NCBI GenBank assembly: GCA_012517355.1
Contig: JAAYVD010000134.1
Coordinates: 62,001-126,000, forward strand
DNA length: 64,000 nucleotides
DNA from: Candidatus Rifleibacteriota bacterium
GTDB taxonomy: Bacteria; Muiribacteriota; Ozemobacteria; Ozemobacterales; Ozemobacteraceae
Reading direction: 5' to 3'
Shown here: piece after piece, positions 142 to 55,482 of the stretch
Numbering within the stretch: position 1 is the first letter of the stretch
Layout of the letters: the number at the start of each line of letters is the position of its first letter
Program-made: the position numbers and the translations under genes
The notes under the pieces: model-generated
Database searches by the model: none
Told to the model about the DNA's origin: nothing
What the model saw: the letters and a program-made list of their open reading frames with translations, nothing else

Positions 142-812
142 GGCGCGGGGGGCCGGCCCTGGACGATGCCCACCGCCTGGTAGGTCAACGTCTGGTCGTG
201 CCGCGGGGTCACCCAGTCGATCCGCAGGTCGGCGCGGAACATCGGTTCCCGCGCCGATCCCCACCCTGCCAGGCGTCGCAGGGCCAGGCGTCGGGTGTAT
301 CCCGTCGGGGCCGGTCCCACGCCCAGGCTCGACAGGGCCAGGCCGCCGGGCAGCTCGGAATCGACGGTCGGGGCCAGTTCGCACAGGACGCCCGGCGCGG
401 CGTTCTTCAGGCCGGCCAGCAGGGAACTGGACAGGCTGGCGGCCAGCGACAGCTCGCGCGCCGCCCGGACCGCCCGCCGGCTCCCGGAAAAGACCGACCA
501 GACCGGCCCCAGCACGGCCAGCAGGATGACGATGGCGACCAGGATCTCGACCAGCGAAAACCCGCCGGCCACCCCCGGCCCGAGGTCGGAAGCGGCCCTC
601 GGCCGCCAGAGATGACGGCGCGCCCTCTCCCTGGCGGGCACCGTAGAGGGACCGACCGGGACGAAGTTGGAAGGGCTTCCCCATTGCCGCCACGGAAGGG
701 GGAGCAAAGTCCCCGTTTCACGCACCGCAAGAGGGCTGACCGACGCGACGTCAAAAGGGCTTCCCCCTGACCGCCACGGAGCGCGGCGCGAAACGCGGGT
801 TTCGCGCATCAT
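138..812 (-). CDS. prepilin-like protein with repeat-derived long leader
   Basis: A type IV prepilin-like N-methylation signal, GG|FSLVEILVAIVILLAVLG, lies near residues 83-100, with the conserved Glu five residues after the cleavage point. It would be processed by a prepilin peptidase and inserted in the inner membrane. The odd part is the leader: about 84 residues instead of the usual 5-30, encoded by two copies of the dispersed hairpin repeat (650-825) read in frame. The ATG at 812 has no good Shine-Dalgarno. The reading frame stays open upstream to a CTG at 872, six bases after an AGGAGG inside the end of the preceding gene, so the true start is uncertain. It overlaps the next gene by ATGA. 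Confidence 0.75.
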   Translation of the reverse strand: MMRETRVSRRAPWRSGGSPFDVASVSPLAVRETGTLLPLPWRQWGSPSNFVPVGPSTVPARERARRHLWRPRAASDLGPGVAGGFSLVEILVAIVILLAVLGPVWSVFSGSRRAVRAARELSLAASLSSSLLAGLKNAAPGVLCELAPTVDSELPGGLALSSLGVGPAPTGYTRRLALRRLAGWGSAREPMFRADLRIDWVTPRHDQTLTYQAVGIVQGRPPAP

Positions 813-825
813 GGAGAGAGGGCCG
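650..825 (+). repeat. two tandem copies of the dispersed multi-hairpin repeat (R1, R2)
   Basis: R1 is about 650-737 and R2 about 738-825. Both show the family layout: a CCGAC...GTCGG-like hairpin, a GGGC-rich outer stem, a central GCCGCCA hairpin and a GAAAC/GTTTC hairpin. R2 carries GCGAAAC-GCGG-GTTTCGC. They lie in the leader-coding part of the minus-strand prepilin gene, which reads them in the antisense orientation. The copies are imperfect, so the borders are approximate. Confidence 0.75.
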
Positions 826-873
826 CCACGGAAGCTGGGATCAGCCCTTCGGCCGCGGATCGCGATGCCCAGG

Positions 874-1854
874 TCAGTCCTCCTGGAAGGCGTACCGCAG
901 CAAGGGGGTGCCGTCGCCGAAATCCCCGTCCAGCCGGAAGGTCACGGTCTCGCCCGCCTGCAGACGCGTCTCCACCGTGGTCTCCCGCGGGGAGAAATCG
1001 CCGGGTTTGGGTTCGAAGATCGAGTCGGGAGCGGGCTTGCCATCCACGGACAACGGGGAGGGATCGACCCCGCCGGTCCGCGACCAGGACAGCCAGGTCC
1101 GTTGTTTGCCGCCGCCCGCGATGCCGACTTCCAGGGTGGCCGGGCCGTAGGTGGACAACTTCGCCGTCACGCGCAGGGTTCCCGGCTTCGGTGCCGTAAA
1201 GGTCTTCGTGCCAGGGTCAGACGCATCCATCGTCCCGGCCGGCCCACCTGCTGCGGTCCGGCCACCGCCGAGGACGTCATCCAGAGTGGCATCGCTGTCG
1301 GACGGCCGGCCCTTCCCGCTGCCGCCCCCCGTCAGGGAACCGCCCTTCAGCAGCCGCACCGTTCCCGCGAAGCCCGGACAGGACAGCCGGCCGATGGTGC
1401 CGGTCCGCGCGATGCGCAGCGCGAAATCGCCGGCTCCCTTCCCGTCGAGGGTGACCTTGCACCGCTTCGCCTGGGGATCATAGGCGATCCGCAGGCAATG
1501 CCGGCCCTCGTAGTTGTCGACGATGGCGTAGTGGTCCTTCTCCCCGTTGGGGTTCCGGATCCGGCCGTCGGTGGCGCTCACGAAATAGACGCTGCCGCGC
1601 GACAACCGGATGCACCCGTTCTCGAAGAGGTCGAGAGAGGTGTTGTTCCCGCCATCGTAGACGTAGCGCTTCGCCGTCCATCGTCCCAGTTTGACCGCAT
1701 CGAACTCGCCGTCGAACTCGAGCGTCCAGGCCGCCCCCAGGGAGGCCCCGACGTTGACGGTCCCCCCACGCTGCACCGTCAGCTCCTGGCCCGCAGCCGC
1801 CAGGGTCAGTCCGACAAAGGCCACCAGGCCCAGCAGCATCCATCCACGTTTCAT
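874..1854 (-). CDS. secreted protein with DATLDDVL motif
   Basis: The start is set by AAGGAG seven bases before an ATG that opens a typical signal peptide (MKRGWMLLGLVAFVGLTLAAAGQ). The N-terminal 160 residues match no family I recognise. After a Gly/Ser-rich linker comes DSDATLDDVLGGG, then a C-terminal domain of about 110 residues containing KPGDFSP. This whole C-terminal half is paralogous to the C-terminus of the secreted protein at 49806-50735, which shows DNDATLDDVLNGG and NPGDFSP. Both copies lie next to paralogous prepilin genes (2260-2760 and 50901-51434). Function is unknown; a role on or near the pseudopilus is inferred from that pairing. Confidence 0.8.
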   Translation of the reverse strand: MKRGWMLLGLVAFVGLTLAAAGQELTVQRGGTVNVGASLGAAWTLEFDGEFDAVKLGRWTAKRYVYDGGNNTSLDLFENGCIRLSRGSVYFVSATDGRIRNPNGEKDHYAIVDNYEGRHCLRIAYDPQAKRCKVTLDGKGAGDFALRIARTGTIGRLSCPGFAGTVRLLKGGSLTGGGSGKGRPSDSDATLDDVLGGGRTAAGGPAGTMDASDPGTKTFTAPKPGTLRVTAKLSTYGPATLEVGIAGGGKQRTWLSWSRTGGVDPSPLSVDGKPAPDSIFEPKPGDFSPRETTVETRLQAGETVTFRLDGDFGDGTPLLRYAFQED

Positions 1855-2259
1855 CGTCGCTCTCCTTCTCTCATTCACATCGTTCGGAAGACCTCCCTGG
1901 CCGCGGGAACCACCGCCCGCTCCAGTTACCCCATCTTCCCATAATTCCCCTCAGGAGGGCCACCAGAAATTGCCAGTGGCCGGCCCCTGCTCGTGGCATC
2001 CCAGGTCTGCGAGAATGGTCTTCACCACAACCCCGGCCGGGTCTCCAGGCGGCGGACCGAAGCCACGGCCTGGCCAGCCTCTGGAAGCGGGCCCGTGGCC
2101 CCGAGTGACACGGGCTGCCCACGCCACCATCCATGATGGCCAGGGGGATGGCTGGCATCGTGTCGGCCGGCTCCCTGGCGGGGCGCGGAACGCGGAACGC
2201 GGCTTCCACGCCGTCCTCCGTGGCGACTTGGGGGCTCCTCCCACATCCGGTCGGCTGGA
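1855..2259. other. 405-bp stretch without a supported gene
   Basis: Between a minus-strand prepilin gene and the secreted-protein gene downstream of it. Open frames here have atypical composition and no recognisable motif. Apart from the AAGGAG binding site of the downstream gene, I see no clear terminator, promoter or repeat. Confidence 0.4.
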
Positions 2260-2760
2260 CTATCGCCGGTCCATGGAAAGCCGCTCCTGGCCGGAGTAAA
2301 GAACCCCCCCGTCGGGCAGGCCGATCTTCAGGCAAAGTGCCTGTTCCTGGACAGAGCCCGGGGAAGGGGTGAGTTCCCAGAGGTAATCCCCGCCCACCAC
2401 CGCGTCGAAATCGAAAAGGCGTGGGCCCTGACCGGGCACCGAGCGCCTCACCTTCCCCCGGGTCCAGGACCAGGTGACCGTGCCCACCACGGGCAGTCCT
2501 TCCCCATCGAGCCGGGCCACGGCCAGGACCAGCCGGTCCGGGCCGGAGGCCACGGCGGTGGCGCTGCGGAAATCCTCGCGCAAGACCGCCCACAACGAGT
2601 CGGCGAGGCGGGCGACCTCGGCCTGCCGCCCGTCGTGCTGGTTCTGGCGCGAGGCCGAGGCCAGGACCGTCCAGACCACCGCCCCGAGCAGGGCGGCCAG
2701 GCAGGCCACGATCACGATCTCGGCCAGGGTCAGCCCGCGCCGCGAAACCGGGCCGTTCAC
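2260..2760 (-). CDS. prepilin-like protein (GspJ/minor pseudopilin type)
   Basis: 166 residues. The leader MNGPVSRRG| is followed by LTLAEIVIVACLAALLGAVVW, a class III/type II pseudopilin N-terminus with Glu at +5. The GTG start overlaps the TGA of the upstream ankyrin/FGE-like gene (GTGA at 2760-2757). The globular part is closely similar along its length to the protein at 50901-51434: both have LREDFRSAT / LRDDLRTAT, a VTWxWxRG block and end near YSxQERxS. The two are therefore duplicated genes. Probably a minor pseudopilin in the inner membrane; the partner machinery is not in the window. Confidence 0.8.
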   Translation of the reverse strand: MNGPVSRRGLTLAEIVIVACLAALLGAVVWTVLASASRQNQHDGRQAEVARLADSLWAVLREDFRSATAVASGPDRLVLAVARLDGEGLPVVGTVTWSWTRGKVRRSVPGQGPRLFDFDAVVGGDYLWELTPSPGSVQEQALCLKIGLPDGGVLYSGQERLSMDRR

Positions 2761-9555: not shown

Positions 9556-9885
9556 CCCTTTTGCCTTGAGCCCACGCCAGGCCCACGCGACGAACCGGGC
9601 AGCCCCGAGGGGGCGGGCGGGCAACCGGCTCGTCTTCCTGTGAGAGAGCCTGTCGGGATCGCACGGGAAGACGAGCACCCCCTTCCCGAAATTCCTCCGG
9701 GTCGAATGGCAGGGAGGATTTCCCGGAGGCAGGGCGCGGGAATCTTCCTCTTCCACCCACGGGCCCACCTTCTACGGGCGAAGTCCACGAAGTGGCGTTA
9801 ACGGTTCGACCGAGACGATGTTCCACGCGCCCCGGCCGCTGCGCATGGGGGTGAATCCCCCCTTTCACGCAGGGCCAGGGGGCGG
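9556..9885. terminator. 330-bp convergent intergenic region with two inverted repeats
   Basis: No gene seen. Two perfect inverted repeats stand out: GCTCGTCTTCC (9628-9638) with GGAAGACGAGC (9666-9676), and CCTCCGGG (9694-9701) with CCCGGAGG (9722-9729). The region lies between convergent genes, so bidirectional transcription termination is plausible, though neither stem is followed by a T tract. A GGGGGTGAATCCCCCC stretch near 9847 may be a degenerate repeat copy. Confidence 0.45.
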
Positions 9886-15067: not shown

Positions 15068-16384
15068 TCATTTCCTGCCTCCAGCCTGGTCGATGAGCGT
15101 GAGCTGCCCGTCTTCGAAACGGGCGAACAGAGCGGGCGCCAAACCGGCGGCAGGGGGGGGCTCTCCCGCCCCGGCAGAACCTCCCAGGCGCAAGAGGCAC
15201 CCCTGCATGGTGCCGATCACCAGATCGCCGTTCTGAAGGACTGCCAGGGCTTTGGGGTTTCCCATTGCGGCCCAGGGGCCGGGAACTTCGCGGGCGCGTG
15301 GTGGGTCCCGGGTTCCCGAGAGGGGGATCGTGACCAGCCACAGCCCGCGATCCCCGGCGACCCAGAGATGGGTGCCCGAGCCGGCGGGACCGTTCACCGG
15401 CCCGGCCAGGGCGTGGATGGCACCGCCGATTCCCGGGACCCTCGCCGCCGGACCGGCTGGGGTGACGATCACCACGCCATCTTCGGTGGTTCCGAGAACC
15501 AGTCGGTCATCGATCCTGAGCAGGACGTTGATGTCGGGGTCGTCCCAGTCGTCGCGGGGAAACAGGCGGCGGTCGATCCGGCCGGAACGGCGGTCCAGAT
15601 GGAACAACCCCCGGGAAGTGGCCAGCCACCATCCGTCCAGGTCGTCGACCACGTCGTTGACCCAGTCGTCGGTCAACCCTTCGGCCGCCCCCAGATATCG
15701 CCACTGCCCTCCGGACAGCAACGCCGCGCCGGAGCCGACGGAACCCAGCACGAGGGTGCCCGAGGCATCTGCCCACAGACCGTGCAGGTAGTTCATGCGC
15801 TGGTCGGGAGCGGGCAGGAGCGATTCCCACCGCGCGGTGGCGAGGTTCCAGGTTAGGGGTCCTTCCCCGGCGGTGGCCGCGAAAAGCCGGTTTCCGCTGA
15901 GGGTGAGGCGGCTGATCCGGTGGCTGGGAATGGTGCCGTCCGGGTTGCTCACCTGGTGCGTGCTGCCGCTGGCCAGGCACCAGGCGCCGCGGCCGAAGGT
16001 GCCGATCCAGAGGGTGCCGTCGGCAACCCCGACCAGGCTGCGGACCACCGCCCGGTAGGCGGGTTTCTTCCAGGGGGCGGCCCCCTTGCCGGGCGCCAAA
16101 CGGGTGTTGGCCGTCGCCATTCCTGGCGGGAGGGGGGCAGGGCCTGCTTCCTGCCGGTCGGACCCCGCGCGGGCGGGGAGGATCAGCCAACCGGCCAGGA
16201 CCATACCCCACAGCCAGAGGCGTAGGAAGGCCTTCCTGGGAAACGGCGGGGAGGCCGGGCGACAGATGGCCGCGACGGAACGGGGATCCGAGGGGGGCGG
16301 AGGGGCTGAGCCAGAGCCCGGTGAAGCCGGGCCCGGCACGGCTGGGAGCACCGGGGGACGGGTGGCCGAGAGAGTCGGATCCAT
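15068..16384 (-). CDS. membrane-anchored or secreted beta-propeller protein
   Basis: About 438 residues from the ATG at 16384. An in-frame ATG at 16414 is an alternative and has a GGAG at short spacing. A hydrophobic segment (LRLWLWGMVLAGWLILPARA) near residues 50-70 is a signal peptide or anchor behind a long Pro-rich N-terminus. Propeller blades follow: GTLWIGTFGRGAW, GWWLATSRGLFHL, RLVLGTTEDGVVI, THLWVAGDRGLWL, GDLVIGTMQGCLL. It belongs to the same blade family as 9886-10974. It heads the minus-strand run 16384-9886 with the TPR gene and the large secreted protein. The further upstream open frame is rejected because its composition is atypical. Confidence 0.75.
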   Translation of the reverse strand: MDPTLSATRPPVLPAVPGPASPGSGSAPPPPSDPRSVAAICRPASPPFPRKAFLRLWLWGMVLAGWLILPARAGSDRQEAGPAPLPPGMATANTRLAPGKGAAPWKKPAYRAVVRSLVGVADGTLWIGTFGRGAWCLASGSTHQVSNPDGTIPSHRISRLTLSGNRLFAATAGEGPLTWNLATARWESLLPAPDQRMNYLHGLWADASGTLVLGSVGSGAALLSGGQWRYLGAAEGLTDDWVNDVVDDLDGWWLATSRGLFHLDRRSGRIDRRLFPRDDWDDPDINVLLRIDDRLVLGTTEDGVVIVTPAGPAARVPGIGGAIHALAGPVNGPAGSGTHLWVAGDRGLWLVTIPLSGTRDPPRAREVPGPWAAMGNPKALAVLQNGDLVIGTMQGCLLRLGGSAGAGEPPPAAGLAPALFARFEDGQLTLIDQAGGRK

Positions 16385-18686: not shown

Positions 18687-18693
18687 CCGCCCC

Positions 18694-18789
18694 TGATCCT
18701 GTCCTCGGGCCCTGAACCGTCCTTGGGCCCTGAACCGTCCTCGGGCCCTGATCCTGTCCTCGGGCCCTGATCCTGTCCTCGGATCCTGC
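18694..18789 (+). repeat. 18/19-bp minisatellite
   Basis: About five tandem units of CTGATCCTGTCCTCGGGCC, or its 18-bp variant CTGAACCGTCCTCGGGCC, directly after the stop of the low-complexity secreted protein. The two unit types alternate as T-A-A-T-T, which suggests slippage or unequal exchange. No coding or terminator function is evident. Confidence 0.8.
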
Positions 18790-18868: not shown

Positions 18869-19837
18869 ATGCGCACCCGGCCCCCGCGGCCCGACCGACA
18901 GGAGTTCGGGAAGTCACCCCTGCAGCCCTGGATGGCCGCGCGCCCTTCCCGTCTCGCCTCAGGCGAAGAGACCGATCGGCAGGAGATCGGCCCCCCCCCC
19001 TTGCCGCCATGGATGCCGACCCGACACACCCTTTTCGCGCATCGCCAGAAGGCCGGCCCGCACGAGATCGGCCATGTTGCCCTGCCGGCACCGCGGACGG
19101 GGCCCCGACCGACGCGAGGTCGGCCATACCCCTTTGCCGCCATGGATGGCGGCGCGAAACGCGAGTTTCGCGCATCGCAAAGGGGCCCTCCGCCCGGCGC
19201 GCACCGCCCGGGAGTGGCCCCTTTCGGCGGGCCGCCCCACCGTTCCGGGGTGACCATCGTCGAGGTCCTGATGGCCTTCCTCATCCTGGGGAGCCTCCTG
19301 CTCCCCGTCTTCTTTGCCCTCACCAACTCCGTCAAGGAGACCGAACGCTTCTACACCGAGGCGGTGGCGATCTCCCAGGCCAAGTATGTCATGGACACGC
19401 TCATGTTCCAGATCCCGTGGCGGACGATCCGCTCCGGCAACCCGGCGCGGTTCGACGACCCGAAGAAGGTCGGGGCGGTGCAAACGCTGTTGGGGGCCGC
19501 CATCCCCCGCATGTTCGGGTCCGGGTGCGAGGGAACGGCCGCCGAGACCTGGCGCGGGGACGGCCTGCTGACCGATCGCAAGGGGTTCCTCTACCGCATC
19601 CGCCTGCAGTGCCGGGACCTCGACGACCTCGAGTTCTCCGTGGACATCCCCGGCCGGGGGCTGCAGACGTTCAGGTCGGCCGAACTGACCCCGAAGGACG
19701 CCGACGGCCGGTATTGCCTGATGAAGAAACTGTCCCTGGAGATCCGGTGGTCGCTGACCAAGGGCCGCGACCCCCTGAAGGATCCGCAGGCCCGGTCGTT
19801 CCGGCTGGTGGCCGTCAAGTCGCACCTGGACGGGTGA
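18869..19837 (+). CDS. prepilin-like protein with 127-residue repeat-encoded leader
   Basis: AAGGAG at 18858-18863 lies five bases before the ATG at 18869, the best start in this stretch. From there the frame is open through four copies of the dispersed hairpin repeat before reaching the prepilin signal RSG|VTIVEVLMAFLILGSLLLP at residues 127-145. The mature part (about 195 residues) is GspI-like: KETERFYTEAVAISQAKYVMDTLM. Leaders of prepilins are normally 5-30 residues, so this one is extraordinary. An internal ATG at 19141 would still leave a leader of 36 residues and has no ribosome binding site. First gene of a three-gene pseudopilin module. Confidence 0.85.
   Translation: MRTRPPRPDRQEFGKSPLQPWMAARPSRLASGEETDRQEIGPPPLPPWMPTRHTLFAHRQKAGPHEIGHVALPAPRTGPRPTRGRPYPFAAMDGGAKREFRASQRGPPPGAHRPGVAPFGGPPHRSGVTIVEVLMAFLILGSLLLPVFFALTNSVKETERFYTEAVAISQAKYVMDTLMFQIPWRTIRSGNPARFDDPKKVGAVQTLLGAAIPRMFGSGCEGTAAETWRGDGLLTDRKGFLYRIRLQCRDLDDLEFSVDIPGRGLQTFRSAELTPKDADGRYCLMKKLSLEIRWSLTKGRDPLKDPQARSFRLVAVKSHLDG
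18891..19195 (+). repeat. four tandem copies of the dispersed multi-hairpin repeat (R3-R6)
   Basis: Copies at about 18891-18970, 18971-19050, 19053-19104 (shortened) and 19106-19195. R6 is near the consensus: CCGACCGACGCGAGGTCGG, a GCCGCCATGGATGGCGGC hairpin, GCGAAAC-GCGA-GTTTCGC, and an outer stem closing with AGGGGCCC. All four are read in the sense frame of the prepilin gene, giving phrases such as AAMDGGAKREFRASQRG. Copies diverge from each other, so they are not a recent expansion. Confidence 0.85.
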
Positions 19838-22519: not shown

Positions 22520-22564
22520 CTCCTCGGCGACAGGATGGGACGTTCTGCCGTGGTCTCGACGGGG

Positions 22565-22650
22565 CCGACCGACACGAGGTCGGAAGGGCCCCTTGGCCGC
22601 CATGGATGGCGGTGCGAAACGCGAGTTTCGCGCACCGCCCAGGGGCCCTC
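22565..22650 (+). repeat. dispersed multi-hairpin repeat copy R7, near consensus
   Basis: The best-preserved copy. CCGACC (22565-22570) pairs with GGTCGG (22578-22583). AGGGCCCCT (22585-22593) pairs with AGGGGCCCT (22641-22649) as an outer stem. Inside it, GCCGCCA (22596-22602) pairs with TGGCGGT (22607-22613), and GCGAAAC (22614-22620) with GTTTCGC (22625-22631) around a GCGA (GNRA-type) loop. It lies just upstream of the minus-strand MOSC fusion gene. Confidence 0.9.
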
Positions 22651-22807
22651 CGCAACGGTCATACCAGTCCAGCCAGGATCGGGGTTTCCCCGCCGGCGGA
22701 GCCTCCCCGCCCGGGAACCCGTCCCCGCGGTCAGGAGGGGGGCCCCCCTTCGCAGCGGAGAGAGGCCCCGCCGCTCGCTTTCCTTCGTTGCATATTTGCA
22801 ATGTCTC

Positions 22808-22895
22808 CCGACCGGCAGCAGGTCGGAAGGGCTCCCCTGCCGCCACGGAGGCCGGCGCGAAACGCGAGTTTCGCCCATCGCGAGGGGGGGCTGAC
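22808..22895 (+). repeat. dispersed multi-hairpin repeat copy R8
   Basis: It shows CCGACCGGCAGCAGGTCGG, CCGCCACGGAGGCCGGC and the intact GCGAAAC-GCGA-GTTTCGC hairpin, closed by a G-rich 3' arm. It is immediately preceded by the AT-rich palindrome TTGCATATTTGCAA (22788-22801). Intergenic. Confidence 0.85.
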
Positions 22896-25978: not shown

Positions 25979-27406
25979 TCATGGGGTTCCGGGGGTGGAC
26001 GGGGTTCCCGTGCTCCCGAGATTATCTTCCAACTCCTTGGCTTTCAGCTCTTCGATTCGGGCTTTGATCGCCTCCATGGTGTCCAGTTGGGTGTTGAGGG
26101 CGGCTTTGCCCGCCTGCAGGGCAGCCATGGCGGCATCGTAGGCGTTGGTGAGGTTGGAAACAGCCCCCGCGGTCGCCCCGGATTCGGCAGCGGGGGCGGC
26201 CGCCTCGGCGGCTTTCTGGTTGGAATAGATGGCGGACATGGAATCGCAGACAATCTTGTGGGCGGCCTGGTGCTGGGCGAAGAGATTCTGGATTATGGAG
26301 TCCCCCGGATAGACCAGATCACTTTCGACCACGATGCCGCGGCCACTGACGAAATAGCCGCACGCTCCGTTGACCCAATTCATGGCCTGGGCAAGTTCGG
26401 AAAGCATGGCATTGACCTCGCTGCTGGTCATGGAATCGTTTTCCTGCGCTGCCTTCCATTCATTCCTGTCGCTTGCGGGCACCTGGAATCCGGGAGGTTC
26501 AGTTTCCGGAGGGTTCAGGATGTCGGGTTCCTGGGAAGGTGGCGGAGTGGTGGGCGGAGTAGTGGGCGGAGTAGTGGGGGGAGCAGTGGGCGGAGTAGTG
26601 GGCGGGGTGGTGGGCGGGGTGGTGGGCGGGGAAGAAGGAGTCGTGGGGGACGGCTTCGCGGCAGGTTTGACGGAGGTCAGGGGGGTGTCGTTGAAGGCGC
26701 CGCCCTGCGTTGTCGGGAAGGGGATGGCCGGCAGTCCGGCCATGACGAAGGAGTCACCACCGGCGGAGGTGGGGGGGAATTCCGGGGTGGTGGTGGCTTT
26801 GGGTGCCGAAGTGCCCAGGATCTGGGCGATCTTCTTCACGTCGGAGATGCCCTGGACCTTGACGGACAGATCGTCGGCCGTATCACGGTTGGCCGCCCGG
26901 GTGCCGAGGATGCGATCGACGGTGGTCCCGAAGGAGGATCCGGCGGACCCGGGGAAGCGGTCTTCAGGGATCGAGGCGAAGAAGAGGACCCCGGACCGGT
27001 TCGACAGGTCGAGGAGATCGTCGCGATACTGGAACCGCCAGAAGAACAGGCGGGTCATCCCGTCGAAGCGGACCCGGATGTACAGGTCGGTCTGATAGTC
27101 ACGGTTCAGGCCGGGGGTATTTTCGCCATGGAGGTCGAACTCGCCGCCGAGGAGGGATATCCTGAACTGCCTGACGGGGTGGTCACGAAAATCCCGGTTG
27201 GCCCAGCTGGTCTGGTGGAGCCTGGCCATGAATCGCGACATGGCGGAGTAGCCGATGTGGAAGGCTGTCTGGGCCTTGTTGAGGTGGGTGATCCGGGCGC
27301 GGGAACTTTGCCCAAGAGAGGACACCACCACGATGAACAAGGTGATGGACAGGCCGGCCATGATGACCAGCGGCAGGACGAAACCGTTCCGTCTTGATTT
27401 CTGCAT
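25979..27406 (-). CDS. PilX-like pseudopilin with Thr-Pro repeat linker
   Basis: 475 residues. The ATG at 27406 lies five bases after GAGGAAG. MQKSRRNG precedes FVLPLVIMAGLSITLFIVVV, then LNKAQTAFHIGYSAMSRFMARL, the PilX-like membrane and amphipathic helices. A mid-protein linker (about residues 255-290) is a tandem TTPP repeat encoded by 12-bp units around 26530-26640. The C-terminal domain is helical (ALQAGKAALNTQLDTMEAIKARIEELKAKE). It heads the prepilin/FecR module, and its stop overlaps a possible ATGA start of the FecR lipoprotein. A minus-strand TAAAAT at 27502-27497 could be a -10 box. Confidence 0.8.
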   Translation of the reverse strand: MQKSRRNGFVLPLVIMAGLSITLFIVVVSSLGQSSRARITHLNKAQTAFHIGYSAMSRFMARLHQTSWANRDFRDHPVRQFRISLLGGEFDLHGENTPGLNRDYQTDLYIRVRFDGMTRLFFWRFQYRDDLLDLSNRSGVLFFASIPEDRFPGSAGSSFGTTVDRILGTRAANRDTADDLSVKVQGISDVKKIAQILGTSAPKATTTPEFPPTSAGGDSFVMAGLPAIPFPTTQGGAFNDTPLTSVKPAAKPSPTTPSSPPTTPPTTPPTTPPTAPPTTPPTTPPTTPPPSQEPDILNPPETEPPGFQVPASDRNEWKAAQENDSMTSSEVNAMLSELAQAMNWVNGACGYFVSGRGIVVESDLVYPGDSIIQNLFAQHQAAHKIVCDSMSAIYSNQKAAEAAAPAAESGATAGAVSNLTNAYDAAMAALQAGKAALNTQLDTMEAIKARIEELKAKELEDNLGSTGTPSTPGTP

Positions 27407-38074: not shown

Positions 38075-38581
38075 TCAGGGGGGGGAAACCCCTGCCAGTT
38101 TCAGGGTGACGGTTTCACCGCGGGCCAAGGCCCCGGCGAAATCGAACCGACGGGTGTTCCCGCCTTCGGTGCGGGTCAGGGTGGTCGGCCCGGCCTGCTG
38201 CCAGGTGACCTCCGACTCCGCCAGGGTGAGGGCCGGGGTCATGGTGACGAGCTTCAGGTCGAGCCGCTGGGTCCCGATCACCCGCACTTCTTTGGCCTGC
38301 TCGAGATCGTGCCGCAAGGTGGATAGGGCCTGCCCCGTCACCATCCAGGCGGTGGTCGACCGGTCCTGGGCCGCGCCCTGGAAGACGACGGCCTGGATGA
38401 CCCGATGCACGACGGCGAGCAGGATGGCCAGCACCAGGCTGGCCACCAGCAACTCAACAAAGGTCAGGCCCCGACGGCCCCGGTGCTGGGCACGAAGCGG
38501 AGGATTCGCGCCGCCCACCGTGGCGGCAAAGGGAAAGCCCTTCCGACGCCGTGTCGGTCTTGGTCGCTCAGTTCTGCTCAT
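38075..38581 (-). CDS. prepilin-like protein with repeat-encoded leader
   Basis: 168 residues. The ATG at 38581 lies 14 bases inside the upstream prepilin gene. Residues 1-38 form the leader, most of it encoded by repeat copy R11 read antisense (TRRRKGFPFAATVGGANPPLR). The prepilin signal RRG|LTFVELLVASLVLAILLAVV then follows, with Glu at +5. The body (STLRHDLEQAKEVRVIGTQRL, RRFDFAGALARGETVTLKL) is GspJ-like. A leader of 38 residues exceeds the usual 5-30. Confidence 0.85.
   Translation of the reverse strand: MSRTERPRPTRRRKGFPFAATVGGANPPLRAQHRGRRGLTFVELLVASLVLAILLAVVHRVIQAVVFQGAAQDRSTTAWMVTGQALSTLRHDLEQAKEVRVIGTQRLDLKLVTMTPALTLAESEVTWQQAGPTTLTRTEGGNTRRFDFAGALARGETVTLKLAGVSPP
38485..38563 (-). 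repeat. dispersed multi-hairpin repeat copy R11
   Basis: Reverse orientation relative to most copies. Read on the minus strand: CCGACACGGCGTCGG, a GGGCTTTCCCTTTGCCGCCAC arm, a GTGGGCGGCGCGAA segment and GGATTCGCGCC. It lies wholly inside the leader-coding part of the prepilin gene 38075-38581 and keeps the frame. Borders are approximate. Confidence 0.7.
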
Positions 38582-42827: not shown

Positions 42828-44429
42828 TCAGAAGTCGAGCACATCGTCGAGCCCGGCATCGGCCGTCCCTCCCGTCTCCGTGGGCTGGCCCGTGGTCGGG
42901 AGGACAGGATCCCGGACCTCATCCGTCGCTCCTGGCTGCGTCCCTGAAACCGGGCCCGCCGCGGGGTCCCCGGCCGTTGGCCCGGAGGCCCGTCCCGAAG
43001 CTTCCCTCCCGGCGGGCGGCGCCGCCGTCTCTCCCGGGGGAGCCGGTTGATGGAAGGCCGTCCAGGAAACGGGCGCCAGGAGCGGGTTTCGTTCGACCTT
43101 CGCGGGTCCGCTCACCGCCGCCGTTTCGCCGGGAGACAACGGCTCGGTGCCATCGGGAAGGCCGATGGTTCCGGAATGGCACCGGACCAGCAGCGTCTCC
43201 CCGTCCCGGGTCAGTTCGCCAACGCTTTTCCGGCCGATCAGGACATTCCCGGGCCCGGTGATCTTGAGCGGGAATGGACTGCCCGCATGACGAATGAGAG
43301 CGGTTCCCGCTGCGAGGTCCAGGCCGAAGGCCTGCACCCGGACCGAGGCCCCGGGGGCAAGCCGGACCATCGAACCGCAAGCCAGCCGCAGGTCGGCGGT
43401 TCCGCTTCCCGCCGCGGTGACCAGGCCTTCGACCGGGATCCTGGCCCCCGGGACCAGCCCGGCCAGGTCATCGGCGGTCGCCAGGGCGGCCTGGCCGGCT
43501 TCGAGAGTCACCAGGCCGGTGGGAAAGGCCTCGTCGAATCCGAGCGGGCCGGCCGCCCCTTCGGGATCGGAGACGACCGGGAGGTCGCCCCAGGGGAGGA
43601 GATCCGCCTCTCGCAACCGCCGGGGACCACCCTTGCCGCCGGGCAATTCGAGGACCTCGCCCGCCTTCATCAGGATGGGACCGGCCGCAGGTGCCGTCGG
43701 GACGACCTCCAGTTCCCCTTGCAGCAAAGCGATGCGCAGGGAGCCCGAAGCCACGGCCAGGTCGAACATGGTCCCCCGCACCGCGAGGACGGCCAACGGC
43801 GTCTGGATGACGAACCGGCTTCCCACCTTGCGGAACAGCAGGCGGACGCCACCGCGGGTCAGGGCCAGCCCGTGTTCGAGGATCTGGCCGGCCGTTTCGC
43901 CCTGGCAACGGAGGTAGCCGCGGTCGGGAAAGACGAGCAGGGCCTGGCCGGCAGCGGCGACCGCGAAGGCATCACCGACCTGGAGATCGGCCGGAGGGGT
44001 GGGCGTCACGGAGGTTCCGGTCAGCCTCACACCAGCGGCAGCCAGGGCGGGGCCGGCCGCCGGCCCACCGATCAGGCTCGCCGCCAGGGCCAGCACGAGC
44101 ACCACCCCCAGGCCGGCCGGCCACGCCGGACCAACCGGCACGGAGTCGGGAGGGATTCCCTCTTGCCGGCCCGGATGGCGGCGCGCAGCACCCGTTTGGC
44201 GAGAGGGAAGGGGACCGACCGGAAGGATGTCGGCAGGGCATCCCCCTTGCCGCGGCGGACGGGGGAGCGAAGCGTGTGTCCCGGCTCCCGGCTTGCATCT
44301 CCCGGGCCCGAGGTCGGCCCACCCTTCCTGCCGCGGCGGCAGGCCGAGCGAAACACCCGTTTCCCCTGGGGCAAAAGGGTCAGCCGGAACGGTTCGCCGT
44401 TGCGGTTTTCCCGCGGCCAGTCGGTCCAT
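42828..44429 (-). CDS. FecR-domain membrane protein with repeat-encoded N-terminus and C-terminal LDDVL motif
   Basis: 533 residues. AAGGAGG six bases before the ATG at 44429 makes the start secure. Residues 1-105 are encoded by three antisense repeat copies (GETGVSLGLPPRQEGWADLG, RQTGAARRHPGRQEGIPPDS). A membrane helix (LGVVLVLALAASLIGGPAAGPALA) follows at about 107-130. The periplasmic part has a FecR domain (VIQTPLAVLAVRGTMFDLAVA, RIALLQGELEVV) and a second FecR-like region (PLKITGPGNVLIGRKSVGEL). The C-terminus ends ADAGLDDVLDF, sharing LDDVL with the secreted proteins at 874 and 49806. Possibly a sensor for pseudopilus assembly. Confidence 0.85.
   Translation of the reverse strand: MDRLAAGKPQRRTVPADPFAPGETGVSLGLPPRQEGWADLGPGRCKPGAGTHASLPRPPRQGGCPADILPVGPLPSRQTGAARRHPGRQEGIPPDSVPVGPAWPAGLGVVLVLALAASLIGGPAAGPALAAAGVRLTGTSVTPTPPADLQVGDAFAVAAAGQALLVFPDRGYLRCQGETAGQILEHGLALTRGGVRLLFRKVGSRFVIQTPLAVLAVRGTMFDLAVASGSLRIALLQGELEVVPTAPAAGPILMKAGEVLELPGGKGGPRRLREADLLPWGDLPVVSDPEGAAGPLGFDEAFPTGLVTLEAGQAALATADDLAGLVPGARIPVEGLVTAAGSGTADLRLACGSMVRLAPGASVRVQAFGLDLAAGTALIRHAGSPFPLKITGPGNVLIGRKSVGELTRDGETLLVRCHSGTIGLPDGTEPLSPGETAAVSGPAKVERNPLLAPVSWTAFHQPAPPGETAAPPAGREASGRASGPTAGDPAAGPVSGTQPGATDEVRDPVLPTTGQPTETGGTADAGLDDVLDF
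44139..44395 (+). repeat. three tandem copies of the dispersed multi-hairpin repeat (R12-R14)
   Basis: R12 about 44139-44212, R13 about 44214-44300, R14 about 44305-44395. R14 keeps GCGAAAC-ACCC-GTTTCCC and CTGCCGCGGCGGCAGG, and R13 keeps CCGACC...GTCGG. The copies run opposite to the FecR gene, which reads all three in frame without a stop. They are more diverged than R6-R8. Confidence 0.7.
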
Positions 44430-46279: not shown

Positions 46280-46777
46280 TCACCGGATGATGTTCTTCAG
46301 GCTGATCCCATCGGTCAGCGAAAACTCGAACCCCTTGGCGTCGAGGATCCGGATCTTGAAGGACAGGTAGGTGTCCCCCTCCCGGACCACGGTGAACTCG
46401 ATCGATTTGCGGGCCAGAACCTGCAACGCATCGGGCTCGTTCTTCCGGGCCCGGTCGCAGTTCAGCATCACCAGTTGGCCTTTCGGATCCAGGAAGATGA
46501 CCGTCACCTCGTTTATCCGGTTCAGGAAGAACAACTGATGATGCGGTTGGCCATCGTCGGGAGGGAAGAGGACCTGGTTGCCGGCCGCCAACTTGTCGGT
46601 CAACGCCCGCGACGTGGAACGCAGATCATGGAAGATGTCGAGCCGGTGCATGCCGTCGACCGACTGCCGCATGCCGATGAATACCGAAAGGGTCATGGAC
46701 ATCAGGATGGCAAACACCACCACCCCGATGATCAGTTCGGTGACGGTGAAACCCGCTCTGCTGGCTGGTCTGTTCAC
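46280..46777 (-). CDS. prepilin-like protein
   Basis: 165 residues. The GTG at 46777 overlaps the TGA of the upstream prepilin gene (GTGA). The leader VNRPASRAG| is followed by FTVTELIIGVVVFAILMSMTL, with Glu at +5. HRLDIFHDLRSTSRALTDKLAAG and FFLNRINEVTVIFLD match the GspJ-like pattern. The continuous upstream frame belongs to a different reading of the preceding gene and is rejected. Confidence 0.85.
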   Translation of the reverse strand: MNRPASRAGFTVTELIIGVVVFAILMSMTLSVFIGMRQSVDGMHRLDIFHDLRSTSRALTDKLAAGNQVLFPPDDGQPHHQLFFLNRINEVTVIFLDPKGQLVMLNCDRARKNEPDALQVLARKSIEFTVVREGDTYLSFKIRILDAKGFEFSLTDGISLKNIIR

Positions 46778-47301
46778 ATGCACGTCCTGATCGTCTTCAG
46801 CTCGAACTCGTGTTTCTTGTCGAGCGCGTTGCCGGCCCCCCTGTTTCCCCACGCGAACCGCAGCCGGATCTCGAACAGGTTGGGGTTCCCCCCGAACGGG
46901 CGGGTCGTCAGGAACAACCGGAAGGCGGGCATGTATTTCACCGACGACTCGACCCCGTAGCCGAGCATGTTCTGCACGGCCTGTTGGCTGCCGGGATCGC
47001 CCAGGATCAGGTCGGTGACGTCCTCGTCGACCATCGCCTTGGGCAGCCGGCCGGCGTCGATCTCGCTCTCGATCAGGTTGACCGCGTTCTCGGCGATGTT
47101 GATGGCCACCGCGTAATCGCGGATCATCTTCTGCTGACCGACGCCGATCTCCGTGTACAGGCGGTACAGCGGGACGAAGACCAGCACGAAGATCACCGCT
47201 CCGAGCAACGCCTCGAAGAGGCTGAACCCACCTCGCCGCCCCGGGCGGAAGCCCCGACCGCGCCCCGCCTGGGCACCTTCCCACGCCACCCGGCTGCTCA
47301 T
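46774..47301 (-). CDS. prepilin-like protein (GspI-like)
   Basis: 175 residues from the ATG at 47301 (MSSRVAWEG). The signal GRRG|GFSLFEALLGAVIFVLVFVPL has Glu at +5, and KMIRDYAVAINIAENAVNLIESE is GspI-like. The frame remains open for 78 codons upstream through repeat R15, to a GTG at 47535 that has no ribosome binding site. By analogy with 18869 and 38581, a longer repeat-encoded leader is possible but not supported here. The binding site for 47301 is only AAAGG at long spacing. Confidence 0.8.
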   Translation of the reverse strand: MSSRVAWEGAQAGRGRGFRPGRRGGFSLFEALLGAVIFVLVFVPLYRLYTEIGVGQQKMIRDYAVAINIAENAVNLIESEIDAGRLPKAMVDEDVTDLILGDPGSQQAVQNMLGYGVESSVKYMPAFRLFLTTRPFGGNPNLFEIRLRFAWGNRGAGNALDKKHEFELKTIRTCM

Positions 47302-47340
47302 CCCACCACCGCCTTTCCCTGCTCTGGGCTTGGAGCCCGA

Positions 47341-47416
47341 TGCCGACCGCCAGGATGTCGCCCACACCCCCTTGCCGCCGCGGAGGGCGGCGCGAACCTT
47401 CTGGTTCGCCCACGGC
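47341..47416 (+). repeat. dispersed multi-hairpin repeat copy R15 with compensatory hairpin
   Basis: It contains GCCGACCGCCAGGATGTCG, TTGCCGCCGCGGAGGGCGGC and GCGAACC-TTCT-GGTTCGC. The last hairpin differs from the consensus GCGAAAC/GTTTCGC in both arms, yet pairs perfectly, which is evidence that pairing is maintained. It lies between the FecR gene and the first prepilin gene of the operon. Confidence 0.8.
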
Positions 47417-47581: not shown

Positions 47582-48817
47582 TCATTCGACCCTCAGCAGG
47601 TCATCCAGGTTCCCGTCCTGGTCCTTGCCGCCGGGAGGGGCGGGATCGGGACCGCCGGGAGAGGCGGCAGGGGTGACGGCCGGGTCGGGCGGCCCCACCG
47701 GTTCCGGCTCCGCCGGATCGGGGCCGACGACGGGACCCGCATCGACCGGGCCGGGGTCCCCGCCGGTGGTCGGGCGGGCCGGCGCCGGCGGGGCAGCGGC
47801 CAGGCGGGGGTCGAGATCGCCGGTCTCGACGGGCCGCACGGCCAGGCCCTGGCGGGTGGCGATCACGATCTGGCCCGCCCGCAAATCGACGCCGGCGACG
47901 CCTGACGCGACCGCATCGACACGCAAGGCCCCTTCGGTCAGGACCACCTTCGCTTCACCTTCCCGCAGATGGACCCGGAAGTCGGTTCCCCGGATGCCGA
48001 GCATGACCGTCGGGGTCTCGATCACAAACTGCCTGCCCTGTTTGCGCATCGAGAAGCGGGTATCCCCGCGAGCCAGGGTCAGGCCGCCGGCGCCGATGGT
48101 GCCACGGGTTCCGGGAAGGAGCCGGACCTCGCTGCCGTCGGGGTAGGACAACAGGCCCCGGCCGCCGTCGGCAACCGCGAAGGCGGTGCCGGGCACCAGG
48201 GTGGCGGGGGCAGCGGGGGTGGTGCCTTCCCCGGTCAGGGTGGGCGCGGGGACGTCAGCCACGGGGGCAGCGGCCGACCGCCCGGCGCCTGGCAGGACGG
48301 CCTGGGGCGACCCCGGCGGCACCGGCGGCTGGAGGTCGGGGGTGGAACGCCCGCTCCAGGCGAGCAGGAGGATCAGCACGACCGCCATTCCTCCGGCCAC
48401 CGCCAGGCGCTGGCCGGAAAAGGCCGCCAGCAGGGCGGGAAGCCAGGTGGGACCTGTCCCGACCGACACGCGGTCGGCCAGCCCCTCTTGCCGCCCTGGG
48501 GGGCGGCGCGAAACGTCCGTTCCGCGCCCCGCCGGGGGGGCGTCCCGCGCCACGGGCGCCGGAAGCGGCTGGCCGGAGGTCACCGCCGGGGAGGGTTGTG
48601 AGGACCGGGCGAGGCGGGCGAGACAGCCCGCTTCGATGCGCTCCCGGATGTCCGGGGCTGGTTCCAGGGACAGGAACCCCTCGTGCCATCGCTGCCGTGC
48701 CGCCCAGACCTGCCGGCATCCCTCGCACTGTTCCAGGTGAACGGCAAGATCGGCTGGCATTGCCGCCTGGAGGGCCTCATCATCCTGGATCCAGCGGGAC
48801 AAGCGATCACATGTCAT
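47582..48817 (-). CDS. zinc-finger anti-sigma-like / FecR-domain membrane protein
   Basis: 411 residues. GGAGG nine bases before the ATG at 48817, 11 bases inside the sigma-factor gene. Residues 1-70 carry the HxxxCxxC zinc-finger anti-sigma motif (LAVHLEQCEGC). Residues about 92-122 are encoded by repeat R16 (DVSRRPPGRQEGLADRVSVG). A membrane helix follows (LAVAGGMAVVLILLLAW, about 138-154). The periplasmic FecR domain has VIETPTVMLGIRGTDFRVHL and AKVVLTEGALRVD. The C-terminus is DGNLDDLLRVE. It should hold the ECF sigma factor and release it on a periplasmic signal, presumably linked to the pseudopilus genes it is transcribed with. Confidence 0.9.
   Translation of the reverse strand: MTCDRLSRWIQDDEALQAAMPADLAVHLEQCEGCRQVWAARQRWHEGFLSLEPAPDIRERIEAGCLARLARSSQPSPAVTSGQPLPAPVARDAPPAGRGTDVSRRPPGRQEGLADRVSVGTGPTWLPALLAAFSGQRLAVAGGMAVVLILLLAWSGRSTPDLQPPVPPGSPQAVLPGAGRSAAAPVADVPAPTLTGEGTTPAAPATLVPGTAFAVADGGRGLLSYPDGSEVRLLPGTRGTIGAGGLTLARGDTRFSMRKQGRQFVIETPTVMLGIRGTDFRVHLREGEAKVVLTEGALRVDAVASGVAGVDLRAGQIVIATRQGLAVRPVETGDLDPRLAAAPPAPARPTTGGDPGPVDAGPVVGPDPAEPEPVGPPDPAVTPAASPGGPDPAPPGGKDQDGNLDDLLRVE
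48459..48540 (+). repeat. dispersed multi-hairpin repeat copy R16 inside a coding region
   Basis: Near-consensus: CCGACCGACACGCGGTCGG, TTGCCGCCCTGGGGGGCGGC, GCGAAAC-GTCC-GTTCCGC, then CCCCGCCGGGG. It sits wholly inside the anti-sigma/FecR gene, well away from either end, between the zinc-finger and membrane-helix codons. The reading frame is retained. Confidence 0.9.
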
Positions 48818-49379: not shown

Positions 49380-49386
49380 GGTCGCG

Positions 49387-51434: not shown

Positions 51435-51435
51435 G

Positions 51436-51523
51436 TGCTGACCGACCCGATATCGGAAGATCTCTCCTCTGCCACCACGGAAAGCAGCGCGCAACGCCCG
51501 TTTCGAGCATCACCAAGGAGGCC
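51436..51523 (+). repeat. dispersed multi-hairpin repeat copy R17
   Basis: It starts directly after the prepilin stop codon: TGACCGACCCGATATCGG, TCTGCCACCACGGAAAGCAG, GCGCAAC-GCCC-GTTTCGAGC. Moderately diverged. The rest of the gap to 51690 holds no recognisable gene. Confidence 0.7.
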
Positions 51524-51690
51524 GCCCGGGAACATGCAAGACCCCAGGAACCGGTCGCTGCCAGCCATCCCCATTCCCCGCCGCCGCCCGTCCACGGAGG
51601 CAACGAGGGAATGGCCCTGCCGGGAGGCGGGTTGTTGCCGGGGGAGTGAACGGCGGGCTCTGTTCATGACCTTCCCGGCCCGCCAGCCCT

Positions 51691-52041: not shown

Positions 52042-52243
52042 TCACGCGCCACGTCTCCCTCCCATCAAGAGAGCGGAGTGCCTCGAAAGGGGCGGAGTAT
52101 GATCCCGACGGGGGATGGTGGTAAACTCTTCTTTGAACCGTCCCGAGAGCGCGGGTGACCCGGCAGGACTTCGTCACGGCACGAGGCCAGGGCCGGAACG
52201 CAGATTCCACCCGCCACGGGCCAACGGGCGACAGGAGGAAGGC

Positions 52244-53053: not shown

Positions 53054-53338
53054 GCAAACGCCGTCCCGGGCCAAGGGGGGAGGCCCTCTCCCACCCCACC
53101 TGGCCCCGGGATCCCCTCTGGTGATACCGCCGGAGCCGGAACCGGGTCTGGGAAGCCCTCTTCATAGGAGGCGGCCCGCCACCTGCCCGCAGGGCCGGGC
53201 AGGGACGGGCCGTTCGGGTCGGTCTTTCTTCGCAAGGCCTGGCGTGGCCCGCGGCGTTTGTCGTATTTCCGAAGGTGGTGGCGGTGATGATCGGAGCAGC
53301 CCAGGCCGAGGTCGGAACGCCCACGCCCTCGTGTGGGG

Positions 53339-53935
53339 TCAGTTGGAAGGGGAAACCGTTCCAGAGGCCGGCAAGAGAGGGGCGCTCTGGGAAGGGGGCG
53401 ACGCCTGGCAGGAACCATCGCGCCGGCGGAGACGCCGACCACCCTGGCCGGGTTGCCCGGCCGGGCCGGCCTTCCACTGGCCGAAGCGCGGGCACCCTTC
53501 CCCCGAACCCTGGCCGAAGCCGGTGCCACCGCGAGCACCGCGGCCGCCACGGCCCTGACCGAAGCGGGCCCCGCACCGGCGCCCACGGCCCCGACCGGAG
53601 CGGGGACCGAAGCCCTGGCCCCGACCGCGCCCCTGACCGGGGACGAAGGACGACGAGGCAGTGGCATCGGCCGGGCCGAACCGGGGGCCGCGCAACCGTG
53701 CCGTTCCGGACGCCTGATCGGCAGAGCGCCACCGGCAGGCTCGATCGGGGTCATCGGCATTGCGGATGCCGTCCCCGTCGAAGTCGCCGTCGGGGCCGAA
53801 ACGCGACAGCCCGGGAGCGGCCTTCGCTTCTTCGGTAGGGACAGCCACGGGCGCGGTGGCCGGGGTCTGGGCGATCAGCGCGGAACCGATGGCGACCAGG
53901 AGAAGGGCCAGGACTGACAGGATGCGGACGTTCAT
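53339..53935 (-). CDS. secreted Arg/Gly-rich protein with EF-hand-like loop
   Basis: 198 residues. AAGGAGG six bases before the ATG. Signal peptide ILSVLALLLVAIGSALIAQT. One calcium-loop or thrombospondin-type-3-like motif (GPDGDFDGDGIRNADD) lies near residue 50. The rest is a low-complexity Gly/Arg-rich tail (GRGRGQGFGPRSGRGRGRRC) with few hydrophobic residues, probably disordered. It converges with the proline-rich protein gene; the 285 bp between them show no clear gene. Confidence 0.65.
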   Translation of the reverse strand: MNVRILSVLALLLVAIGSALIAQTPATAPVAVPTEEAKAAPGLSRFGPDGDFDGDGIRNADDPDRACRWRSADQASGTARLRGPRFGPADATASSSFVPGQGRGRGQGFGPRSGRGRGRRCGARFGQGRGGRGARGGTGFGQGSGEGCPRFGQWKAGPAGQPGQGGRRLRRRDGSCQASPPSQSAPLLPASGTVSPSN

Positions 53936-54102
53936 GAAGGACCTCCTTTTCCGATTCGTTCTGGTGAAACCGGCGAACCTGCATTGCTGGCCTGCAGATC
54001 GCGGAAGATCACCATTGTTCGACGGGGAAGGCTGAGGACGACGGGAGGGTGGAGAAGGTCAGGCGAAAGGGAAGGACGCATCGGGGAAGCACGTGACCGG
54101 CC

Positions 54103-54846
54103 TTACACGGCCCGCCCATGCCGGCGCCGATGCTGACGTTGGCCGGCGAATTCGCTCACCTCGAGAGTGCCGTCGCTGGCCCAGGCCCCGCGGGCGGCCG
54201 GGGTTCCCTGCACCGAGACGGTGAGGGCGCCGGTGTCGTCCTCGAGAATCTGCAGGATCCTGCCAGAGCGCTGGTTGGTGAGGGTGGCCAGGGGTTCGCC
54301 CGCCTGGGTCCCGAAGACCACCGACCAGGTGCGGCCGTTCTCGGTGATCGTCCCCGTCGGCGCCCCGTCCGCCGGCAGCGCCACTTCGAAAGACTCGCCA
54401 TTGGCGCGGGTCAGCAGAAAGCCGCCCGAGGCCAGCCGGGTGACCTGGGCGCCCAGGCCGGCGATGGTCGCCGTTCCGGAAGCGCCGATCCCGGCGGGTA
54501 TCTGGACGGGGCAGCCGGCCGCGCCCCGCCGGACGACCACGCCACCGCCCTGGCGGCCGGCCCGGTACCGGCGACCGAGGTGGGTGATCTCCTGGCTGGT
54601 GGTGGTCAGGTCGGTTTCGGGCAGGAGGGAGGCCATGATGCTGGGAGTCAGGACCGCGGCTTCGGCGGCTTCCAGGCGGTCGGCCACCAGGGCGGCCTCG
54701 ATCACCCCGAGGTCGGCATCTTCGAGAAGGCCGGTCGCGGCAACCGTGCCGGTGCCCGCGCCGGATCCACCTGTGCCGGAGCAGCCGGTCAGGAAAAGGA
54801 CGAAGGCCAGGAAGGGAACGAACAAAGGCAGCGATCGAGTGTTCAC
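54103..54846 (-). CDS. lipoprotein of unknown function
   Basis: 247 residues. GGAGG five bases before a GTG at 54846 makes that start preferable to the ATG four codons upstream. Lipoprotein signal with lipobox FLTGC, followed by a Gly/Ser/Thr linker. The mature part is beta-rich (GTATIAGLGAQVTRLASGGF; SGRILQILEDDTGALTVSVQ), compatible with a small beta-sandwich, but no family is recognised. Outer-membrane or inner-membrane periplasmic face. Confidence 0.7.
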   Translation of the reverse strand: MNTRSLPLFVPFLAFVLFLTGCSGTGGSGAGTGTVAATGLLEDADLGVIEAALVADRLEAAEAAVLTPSIMASLLPETDLTTTSQEITHLGRRYRAGRQGGGVVVRRGAAGCPVQIPAGIGASGTATIAGLGAQVTRLASGGFLLTRANGESFEVALPADGAPTGTITENGRTWSVVFGTQAGEPLATLTNQRSGRILQILEDDTGALTVSVQGTPAARGAWASDGTLEVSEFAGQRQHRRRHGRAV

Positions 54847-55482
54847 AGAATCCTCCATTGTGGTGTGTCGTGCAACATCACCAAAGCCACAGCAGGGAAC
54901 GTGCCAACCCTTCCATATCCCGTTTCGATGCGCATCTCAACCATTTCCGACCGGCCATGCGCCACCTCGAGGTGCAAGATCTGGTACTTCCCCGACAGAA
55001 TCTTGCACTCCGGGAACGGGCCGGAACGACGCAGGGAGGTTCCCCCTGTCGCTCCCGATGGGGAGGGATGAAACGCTCGTTTCACGCATCGTCAGGAACC
55101 TTCCGGCACCTGATCGGAAGGGCTCCCCACGACTGCCACCGGTGGCGCTGCGCACCGTCCGCTTCCTCTACCGCGAGGGAACACTCCGTTCGGGCGGCGG
55201 AGACCCTCGCGGCGGGAAGGCCTGAGGCCGACTGGCCCCCAGAAGTCCAGAGTGTCTGATACCAACCGATTGGCCTTGCCGGATGCCCCCGGGCCACCCG
55301 CCCGACCCTTTTTCCCGCAAGCGTCACCACGGATGGCCACCGGCCTTGGCCTCCCGGCCGGGAGCCCCCCAGGAAGGGGAGAAGGGGTTCGGGTGCCGCC
55401 TCATGGTCCAGGTGAACCTCCACGCCGAAGAGGCTGAAGGGAAGACTGACGACCCTGGTATACTTCTTGTGAGCAACAGAGC
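54847..55482. other. 636-bp intergenic region with inverted repeat and two repeat copies
   Basis: No gene seen. A perfect inverted repeat GTGCAAGAT (54972-54980) / ATCTTGCAC (55000-55008) has a 19-base spacer. Two diverged copies of the dispersed hairpin repeat follow. R18 is about 55026-55104 (TGAAAC-GCTC-GTTTCA hairpin, outer arms GGAGGTTCC/GGAACCTTCC). R19 is about 55107-55185. TATACT near 55459 could be a -10 box for the histidine kinase gene. Confidence 0.5.
55026..55185 (+). repeat. two copies of the dispersed multi-hairpin repeat (R18, R19)
   Basis: R18 keeps pairing with altered sequence: TGAAAC/GTTTCA in the distal hairpin and GGAGGTTCC with GGAACCTTCC in the outer stem. R19 has CACCTGATCGGAAGGGCTCCCC, a CTGCCACCGGTGGC hairpin and a degenerate distal part. 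They lie between a lipoprotein gene and the two-component genes. Confidence 0.65.

Follow-up and report, generated by a model that had tools for sequence, protein, structure and literature searches.

A modular palindromic repeat dispersed between and within the genes of a Candidatus Ozemobacteraceae genome

A short, hairpin-rich repeat is scattered over a 64-kb stretch of Candidatus Rifleibacteriota DNA (C34:62001-126000 in a 7.11-Mb draft genome of 184 contigs; hereafter, the window). Iterated profile (nhmmer) and covariance model (CM) searches identified about 24 units (Table 1), and a CM built from the window copies recovered 18 of the units in the window at E<1e-6 and two more with weaker scores. 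A preliminary description of the window had listed about 20 copies in 12 intervals; all 12 indeed hold units of one family, to which four or five units were added. The description had recognized no known family, and no Rfam family matches the window. It had also placed copies within and between genes, which is correct overall, but the window copies are nearly all intergenic. The clear intragenic one, 48457-48541, lies between a zinc-finger-like N terminus and a transmembrane/FecR part (PF04773 in the same open reading frame [ORF]). The unit at 16079-16163(-) follows directly and in frame after a likely signal peptide (MVLAGWLILPARA) in ORF 15068-16204(-) and was classed as unsupported/edge when gene placement was counted. 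Several prepilin-like genes of the window have their leader or start region near a repeat unit (138-572(-), 19250-19837(+), 38075-38581(-), and 46280-47413(-)); in one of them, some of the prepilin leader may come from the unit at 38476-38563.

The common form of the repeat (type A; consensus, GACCGACACGATGTCGGAAGTGCCCCTTTGCCGCCACGGATGGCGGCGCGAAACGCCCGTTTCGCGCATCGCAAAGGGGCC) is 81 bp long, or 84 bp with a CTT-type insert; it begins with GACCGACACG... and ends with ...GGGGCC. Its 5' part is hairpin 1 (hp1; GACCGACACGANGTCGG), previously given as CCGACC/GGTCGG; the core is in fact CCGAC/GTCGG, with a sixth pair that is often broken. After a short spacer, the 3' part forms a three-way junction in which an outer stem encloses two hairpins, CGCCA/TGGCG and GCGCGAAAC/GTTTCGCGC, each with a 4-base loop. 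The outer stem is CCCCTTTGC/GCAAAGGGG and not the GGGC-rich stem proposed before. The ends of the consensus, GACCG.../...GGGGCC, do not form a terminal inverted repeat. A second form (type B) is a 60-bp unit with the same hp1, an AAGTG spacer, and a single 3' hairpin with the outer stem GGGCCGCGG/CCGCGGACCC; it occurs in tandem in the related genome G002 (L074), and the 1.9-Mb sample of the own genome has five copies.

Table 1. Repeat units in the window, with the evidence for each
Positions	Strand	Feature	Evidence
570..649	+	degenerate unit, upstream of prepilin-like gene; added here	CM 28 bits; nhmmer E 7e-8
650..737	+	type A, tandem pair, period 84	CM 70.8 bits
734..815	+	type A, second of pair; used to build copy R1	nhmmer E 1e-15
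2089..2172	-	type A; added here	CM 65.8 bits
2168..2260	-	decayed unit abutting 2089-2172; added here	nhmmer E 5e-10 only; absent from CM list
9804..9884	+	type A; added here	CM 55.7 bits
16079..16163	-	type A; added here	CM 69.3 bits; translation
18889..18969	+	decayed unit, array of four	CM 36.6 bits
18970..19054	+	type A	CM 76.9 bits
19057..19104	+	unit fragment	nhmmer E 0.55, weak; sequence and position only
19103..19187	+	intact type A, minimum free energy -48.8 kcal/mol, z -4.1	CM 98.3 bits; fold
22563..22647	+	intact type A, z -4.9	CM 100.4 bits; fold
22806..22888	+	type A	CM 83.2 bits
28976..29059	+	type A	CM 60.7 bits
30134..30217	+	type A	CM 70.6 bits
30216..30279	+	partial unit in tandem	nhmmer E 2e-8
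38476..38563	-	type A, leader region of prepilin-like ORF 38075-38581(-)	CM 69.1 bits; translation
44129..44212	+	type A, array of three	CM 59.7 bits
44213..44297	+	type A, array of three	CM 51.1 bits
44298..44381	+	type A, array of three	CM 53.7 bits
47341..47425	+	type A	CM 75.6 bits
48457..48541	+	type A, in frame in ORF 47582-48817(-)	CM 78 bits; translation
51436..51522	+	type A	CM 68.1 bits
55015..55100	+	type A, divergent stem sequence	CM 52.4 bits
55099..55184	+	decayed unit in tandem	nhmmer E 6e-10

Only the two intact copies folded much better than dinucleotide shuffles; most window copies did not, and thus the window holds mainly decayed copies. Pairing was supported by covariation in 139 copies from the genome: 84.5% of the alignment cells paired, both sides had changed in 22 of 29 pairs (13.9 ± 2.1 after shuffling), and 112 cells were double changes (54.8 ± 5.6 after shuffling). 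None of 500 shuffles reached either value, and the signal dropped strongly when the pairing partner was slid. The preliminary description had made paired substitutions beyond chance a test of the family; that excess is clear in the genome copies and barely present in the window copies alone (21 double-change cells versus 11.9 ± 2.8). The alignment was fitted to a model with the same structure, a bias limited by the near absence of gaps in the copies. Since part of the covariation reflects subfamily structure, e.g., CG versus UA at one outer-stem pair, it indicates that pairing was kept during copying and does not prove that each copy functions now.

A genome-wide search, on which the preliminary description had also staked the family, returned hundreds of further copies. 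Genome statistics were taken from a 1.9-Mb sample, part of which was picked around high-scoring copies; its 1.885 Mb contained 208 units, a density of 110 per Mb that corresponds to about 1% of the DNA and to about 785 units per genome, and 800 kb sampled without regard to the repeat contained 82 units at E<0.01. We estimate about 700 to 800 units per 7.1-Mb genome, with the window about 2.5-fold denser than the rest of the sample (17 units versus 6.7 expected). As described before, units occur singly or in tandem and in both orientations: the strands are balanced (113:95), and of 170 arrays, 137 were single, 28 double, and 5 triple. The hp1 pattern, with one mismatch allowed, matched 344 times in the own genome (G000; control, 1), 18 times in G002, never in G001, which is of the same genus, and 0 to 5 times in the other relatives. 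Outside its own species, the repeat is present only in one sister species, where it is sparse. Samples of G001, G002, G005, G007, and G029 showed no dispersed repeats of similar depth. Matches to hp1 in a virus contig and in a Leptospirales genome lacked the 3' module and were dismissed as chance.

The flanks of young arrays (72 left, 71 right) revealed a sharp site preference, with CGGWCCC before the unit and GWCCSS after it. This signal was essentially confined to positions -7 to +6; C was present at -2 in 98% and at -1 in 94% of young copies, and the right flank read G, T/A, C, C. The preferred site is thus CGGWC-CC-GWCCG-like, with half-sites inverted around CC. Beyond a possible shared CC, there was no clear excess of direct repeats between the flanks (p=0.08), i.e., no target duplication was detected. 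One copy (L097:1903) resembled an insertion into a terminator hairpin, but a palindromic target in the flanks was rejected: the flanks overall were not complementary (p=0.62), nor did the left and right flanks of one copy show complementarity beyond the consensus. The junction between tandem units, GGGGCC|GACCG, resembles the insertion site. Tandem periods were 81 or 84 in 25 of 30 cases, and neighboring units resembled each other just slightly more than did random units matched to them (p=0.06), with some identical pairs (L003, L012). In mixed arrays, A and B units abut exactly (L070, L093, L011), and therefore arrays can grow by insertion.

Genes were predicted with a home-made dicodon gene caller (coding density, 87%). 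By this measure, 129 of the 170 arrays (about 76%) were intergenic, 26 lay in genes and had coding signal to either side (about 3 of these had negative positions and are gene-start artefacts), and 15 were unclear. At least 20 arrays in the 1.9 Mb are in frame within intact genes, where the repeat adds 27 or 28 residues; genic copies use all six relative frames and both orientations. Extrapolation gives roughly 75 to 110 intragenic arrays per genome. The L-aspartate oxidase NadB (L169:12803-14665) carries three units in the linker that follows its FAD domain, one of type B, one of type A, and a third that is decayed, and the inserts are missing from the orthologues in G001-G004. An AGE-type epimerase (L044:3490-5844) contains three units and another, whereas its orthologues in G003, G005, and G026 are free of inserts. 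A DegT aminotransferase (L054:4944-6230) has extra residues compared with ArnB (PDB) and with G003-G005, and in a glycosyltransferase-like protein (L067:18735-19943; labeled by annotation similarity only, with no Pfam match) the insert is missing in G003-G005. In AlphaFold models, the stretches covering the inserts (403-532 in NadB; 256-333 and 463-550 in the epimerase) had predicted local distance difference test (pLDDT) scores of <50, which, with alignments of 4 to 5 sequences, would fit weakly with the expectation for loops. The two sister genomes have other in-frame, low-complexity inserts in the same loops (L104 and L105 in DegT, L117 and L118 in the glycosyltransferase), which suggests that the genus has insertion hot spots or harbors older elements that have decayed.

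Unit lengths and indels, measured by alignment to the consensus, differed between the two settings. Net indels were 0 or +3 in 28 of 28 genic units, despite 16 mismatches to the consensus on average, but in only 122 of 162 intergenic units, the other 40 having frameshifting lengths (p=0.0007; p=0.001 at ≥15 mismatches). Moreover, the consensus of both types has a length that is a multiple of three and is open in all six frames; selection for this openness is only suggested.

Taken together, the repeat is very probably a short, non-autonomous selfish DNA element that recently multiplied in one Candidatus Ozemobacteraceae lineage. Some enzyme supplied in trans would recognize the 5' hairpin and the ends. 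Because a unit ends with GGGGCC and begins with GACCG, each junction would re-form a target-like site, and so a new copy could be placed beside an existing one, giving rise to head-to-tail arrays. Intergenic insertions would survive, as would those in signal or leader peptides and in loops or linkers of proteins, since 27 or 28 residues are added without a frameshift or stop; other insertions would be removed by selection, and the copies would decay after insertion. More tentatively, and with the balance of our judgment against it, the repeat may stand for a new class of modular mobile repeat, in which a conserved end hairpin is combined with interchangeable modules (81/60 bp), moved by some enzyme, and inserted without target duplication at a partly palindromic CC-core site that it regenerates itself, and which has been molded to be translatable in six frames and so remodels proteins genome-wide.

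Several points weigh against the selfish-element interpretation. No mobilizing enzyme was found in the draft genome, which may lack it; a transposase gene is unlinked and recombinases are present as fragments only. The inserted length and the target were deduced from flanks, arrays, and proteins and not from empty sites of the same DNA. G001 and G002 carry other, unrelated-looking inserts at the DegT and glycosyltransferase sites, and thus these loops may predate the element as extensions. The frame test is partly circular: genic units were picked by a continuous ORF, so the test shows that frames are kept open across old insertions, not how often insertions break genes. Six-frame openness arises by chance in 7% (A) and 22% (B) of randomizations that preserve structure and composition. 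Finally, copies between co-directional genes are in the sense orientation slightly too often (50:30, p=0.03), which leaves room for an effect at the RNA level.

Among the alternatives, it is unlikely that the units are REP-type elements whose hairpins are recognized as single strands by the genome's own TnpA_REP, a REP-associated tyrosine transposase (RAYT; Y1 HUH). The abundance of hairpins and the failure to detect target duplication would fit, and the RAYT sought in the preliminary description does exist: the genome has one RAYT-like Y1 gene (L083:4057-4848; PF01797 match at C109:4387-4713, 49.6 bits), and the distribution of PF01797 genes, one each in G000 and G002 and none in G001, parallels that of the repeat. 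However, the gene region (L083:3990-5010) is flanked on both sides by a different repeat that resembles GAGTTCCGGGGACATGATACCGAA and has about 10 copies in 1.9 Mb, no copy of the 81-bp repeat lies beside it, and within the 14-kb region the closest unit is about 6.5 kb from the gene, so the suspected link was not borne out. PF01797 genes are also present in many repeat-free relatives, and neither the flank nor the unit consensus has a conserved GTAG or CGTC tag. Furthermore, the two flanks are equally specific, contrary to what would be expected if targeting were of the IS200/IS605 type.

A derivative of an element with a 2-bp-core recombinase (IS110 or an IS607-type serine transposase), with CC as the shared core and the flanking half-sites as the target, is rather improbable. 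It would account for CC at both junctions and for the inverted half-sites CGGWC/GWCCG, and a decayed IS110 fragment is present in G000 and in 0 of 12 relatives. No intact IS110 or serine recombinase was detected in the assembly, which is weak evidence given a draft genome, and the fragments showed no link to the repeat. Decayed IS110 transposase and serine recombinase fragments lie together on contig C162 (L207, L208, L216). A full-length autonomous parent with the same ends did not turn up, although no systematic search for one was made.

The intergenic copies could instead be terminators, mRNA stabilizers, or attenuators under selection. The stable structure, its covariation, and the slight sense bias speak for such a regulatory element, but we regard it as very improbable. 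Intergenic placement followed the available base pairs (co-directional gaps, 80 versus 71 expected; divergent, 27 versus 34; convergent, 20 versus 22; p=0.25), with no enrichment in convergent gaps or beside upstream stop codons and no bias toward the 3' end of the upstream gene or gene ends, which argues for tolerance and not for a terminator role. In addition, the fold is lost in most window copies, the repeat is missing from a genome of the same genus, and reading frames contain copies of either orientation. A last alternative, that units were duplicated by replication slippage or recombination and never transposed, would explain the identical neighbors but is hardly credible for copies that are spread across many contigs, point both ways, and have unrelated flanks, a specific target motif, and mixed A/B arrays.

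The genome also contains another dispersed family, distinct from the first, whose units measure about 138 bp and include several hairpins (AAGGCTTGCCGAAGGGGCTTTGCCCCTTC...GACCGGACGG). Its copies number at least 40, with 95 to 99% identity (e.g., L062:19811-19964, L050:15505-15657, and L041:9609-9775), and several of them lie at contig ends. Short tandem repeats are present in the window at 18691-18782 (19-bp CCCTGATCCTGTCCTCGGG, 4.9 copies) and 26541-26629 (12-bp GGCGGAGTAGTG, 7.4 copies).

The selfish element would best be read as working like the Rickettsia palindromic elements (RPE), a likeness of behavior drawn from the description of the two. RPE and the protein-coding palindromic repeats of Wolbachia are short, structured, and present in many copies, between genes and in frame in conserved protein genes (PMC3767692, PMC2229807, PMC10969869); the repeat described here is likewise multicopy, mostly intergenic, and in frame in functional-looking genes. 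Related Rickettsia species have different inserts at the same RPE site (PMC3767692), as G001 and G002 do at the DegT and glycosyltransferase sites. In contrast, RPE are 100 to 150 bp long, have terminal inverted repeats, and reside in obligate intracellular bacteria, whereas the units described here measure 81/84 or 60 bp, lack a terminal inverted repeat, combine a 5' hairpin with an exchangeable 3' module, have a defined target motif, form tandem arrays, and belong to a GC-rich Riflebacteria genome. REP/BIME sequences with their RAYT are high-copy, lineage-specific hairpin repeats that are sometimes intragenic (PMC3733652), all of which applies here; but REP of the GTAG and CGTC superfamilies are 20 to 40 bp long, carry a GTAG or CGTC tag, lie preferentially downstream of genes in unidirectional and convergent gaps, and are often found on the flanks of a RAYT, none of which was found for the present repeat. 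Of the two comparisons drawn in the preliminary description, the one with RPE fits better than that with REP because copies occur in frame within proteins and do not favor the ends of genes. Bacterial miniature inverted-repeat transposable elements (ERIC, NEMIS/Correia, RUP, BOX) are similar in size, dispersed, and non-coding but translatable, and in-frame fusion with ORFs is also described for ERIC and the 107-bp Correia form (PMC2229807). Such elements are bounded by terminal inverted repeats and usually create a target duplication; the present repeat showed neither. GC clusters of yeast mitochondria are mobile repeats too, rich in GC and palindromic, and some have been reported within genes for proteins, but they belong to an organelle, are shorter, and differ in target and mechanism. 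We call the repeat an in-frame-tolerated palindromic repeat, modular and site selective, from outside the Rickettsiales; it may have been described before beyond the open-access PMC literature.

Records of selfish DNA lying in frame in numerous unrelated proteins come chiefly from Rickettsia and Wolbachia. That a GC-rich 7-Mb genome from another, little-known phylum has been invaded independently, and on a larger scale, shows that such events also take place where genomes are neither reduced nor intracellular. With a sharply defined target motif, an end hairpin common to exchangeable modules, and a copy-free sister genome, the insertion rules, the tolerance of reading frames, and the effects on the host become testable. 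Peptides such as DRHDVGSAPLPPRMAARNARFAHRKGA in proteins of this lineage should be taken as sequence of a mobile element and not as domains.

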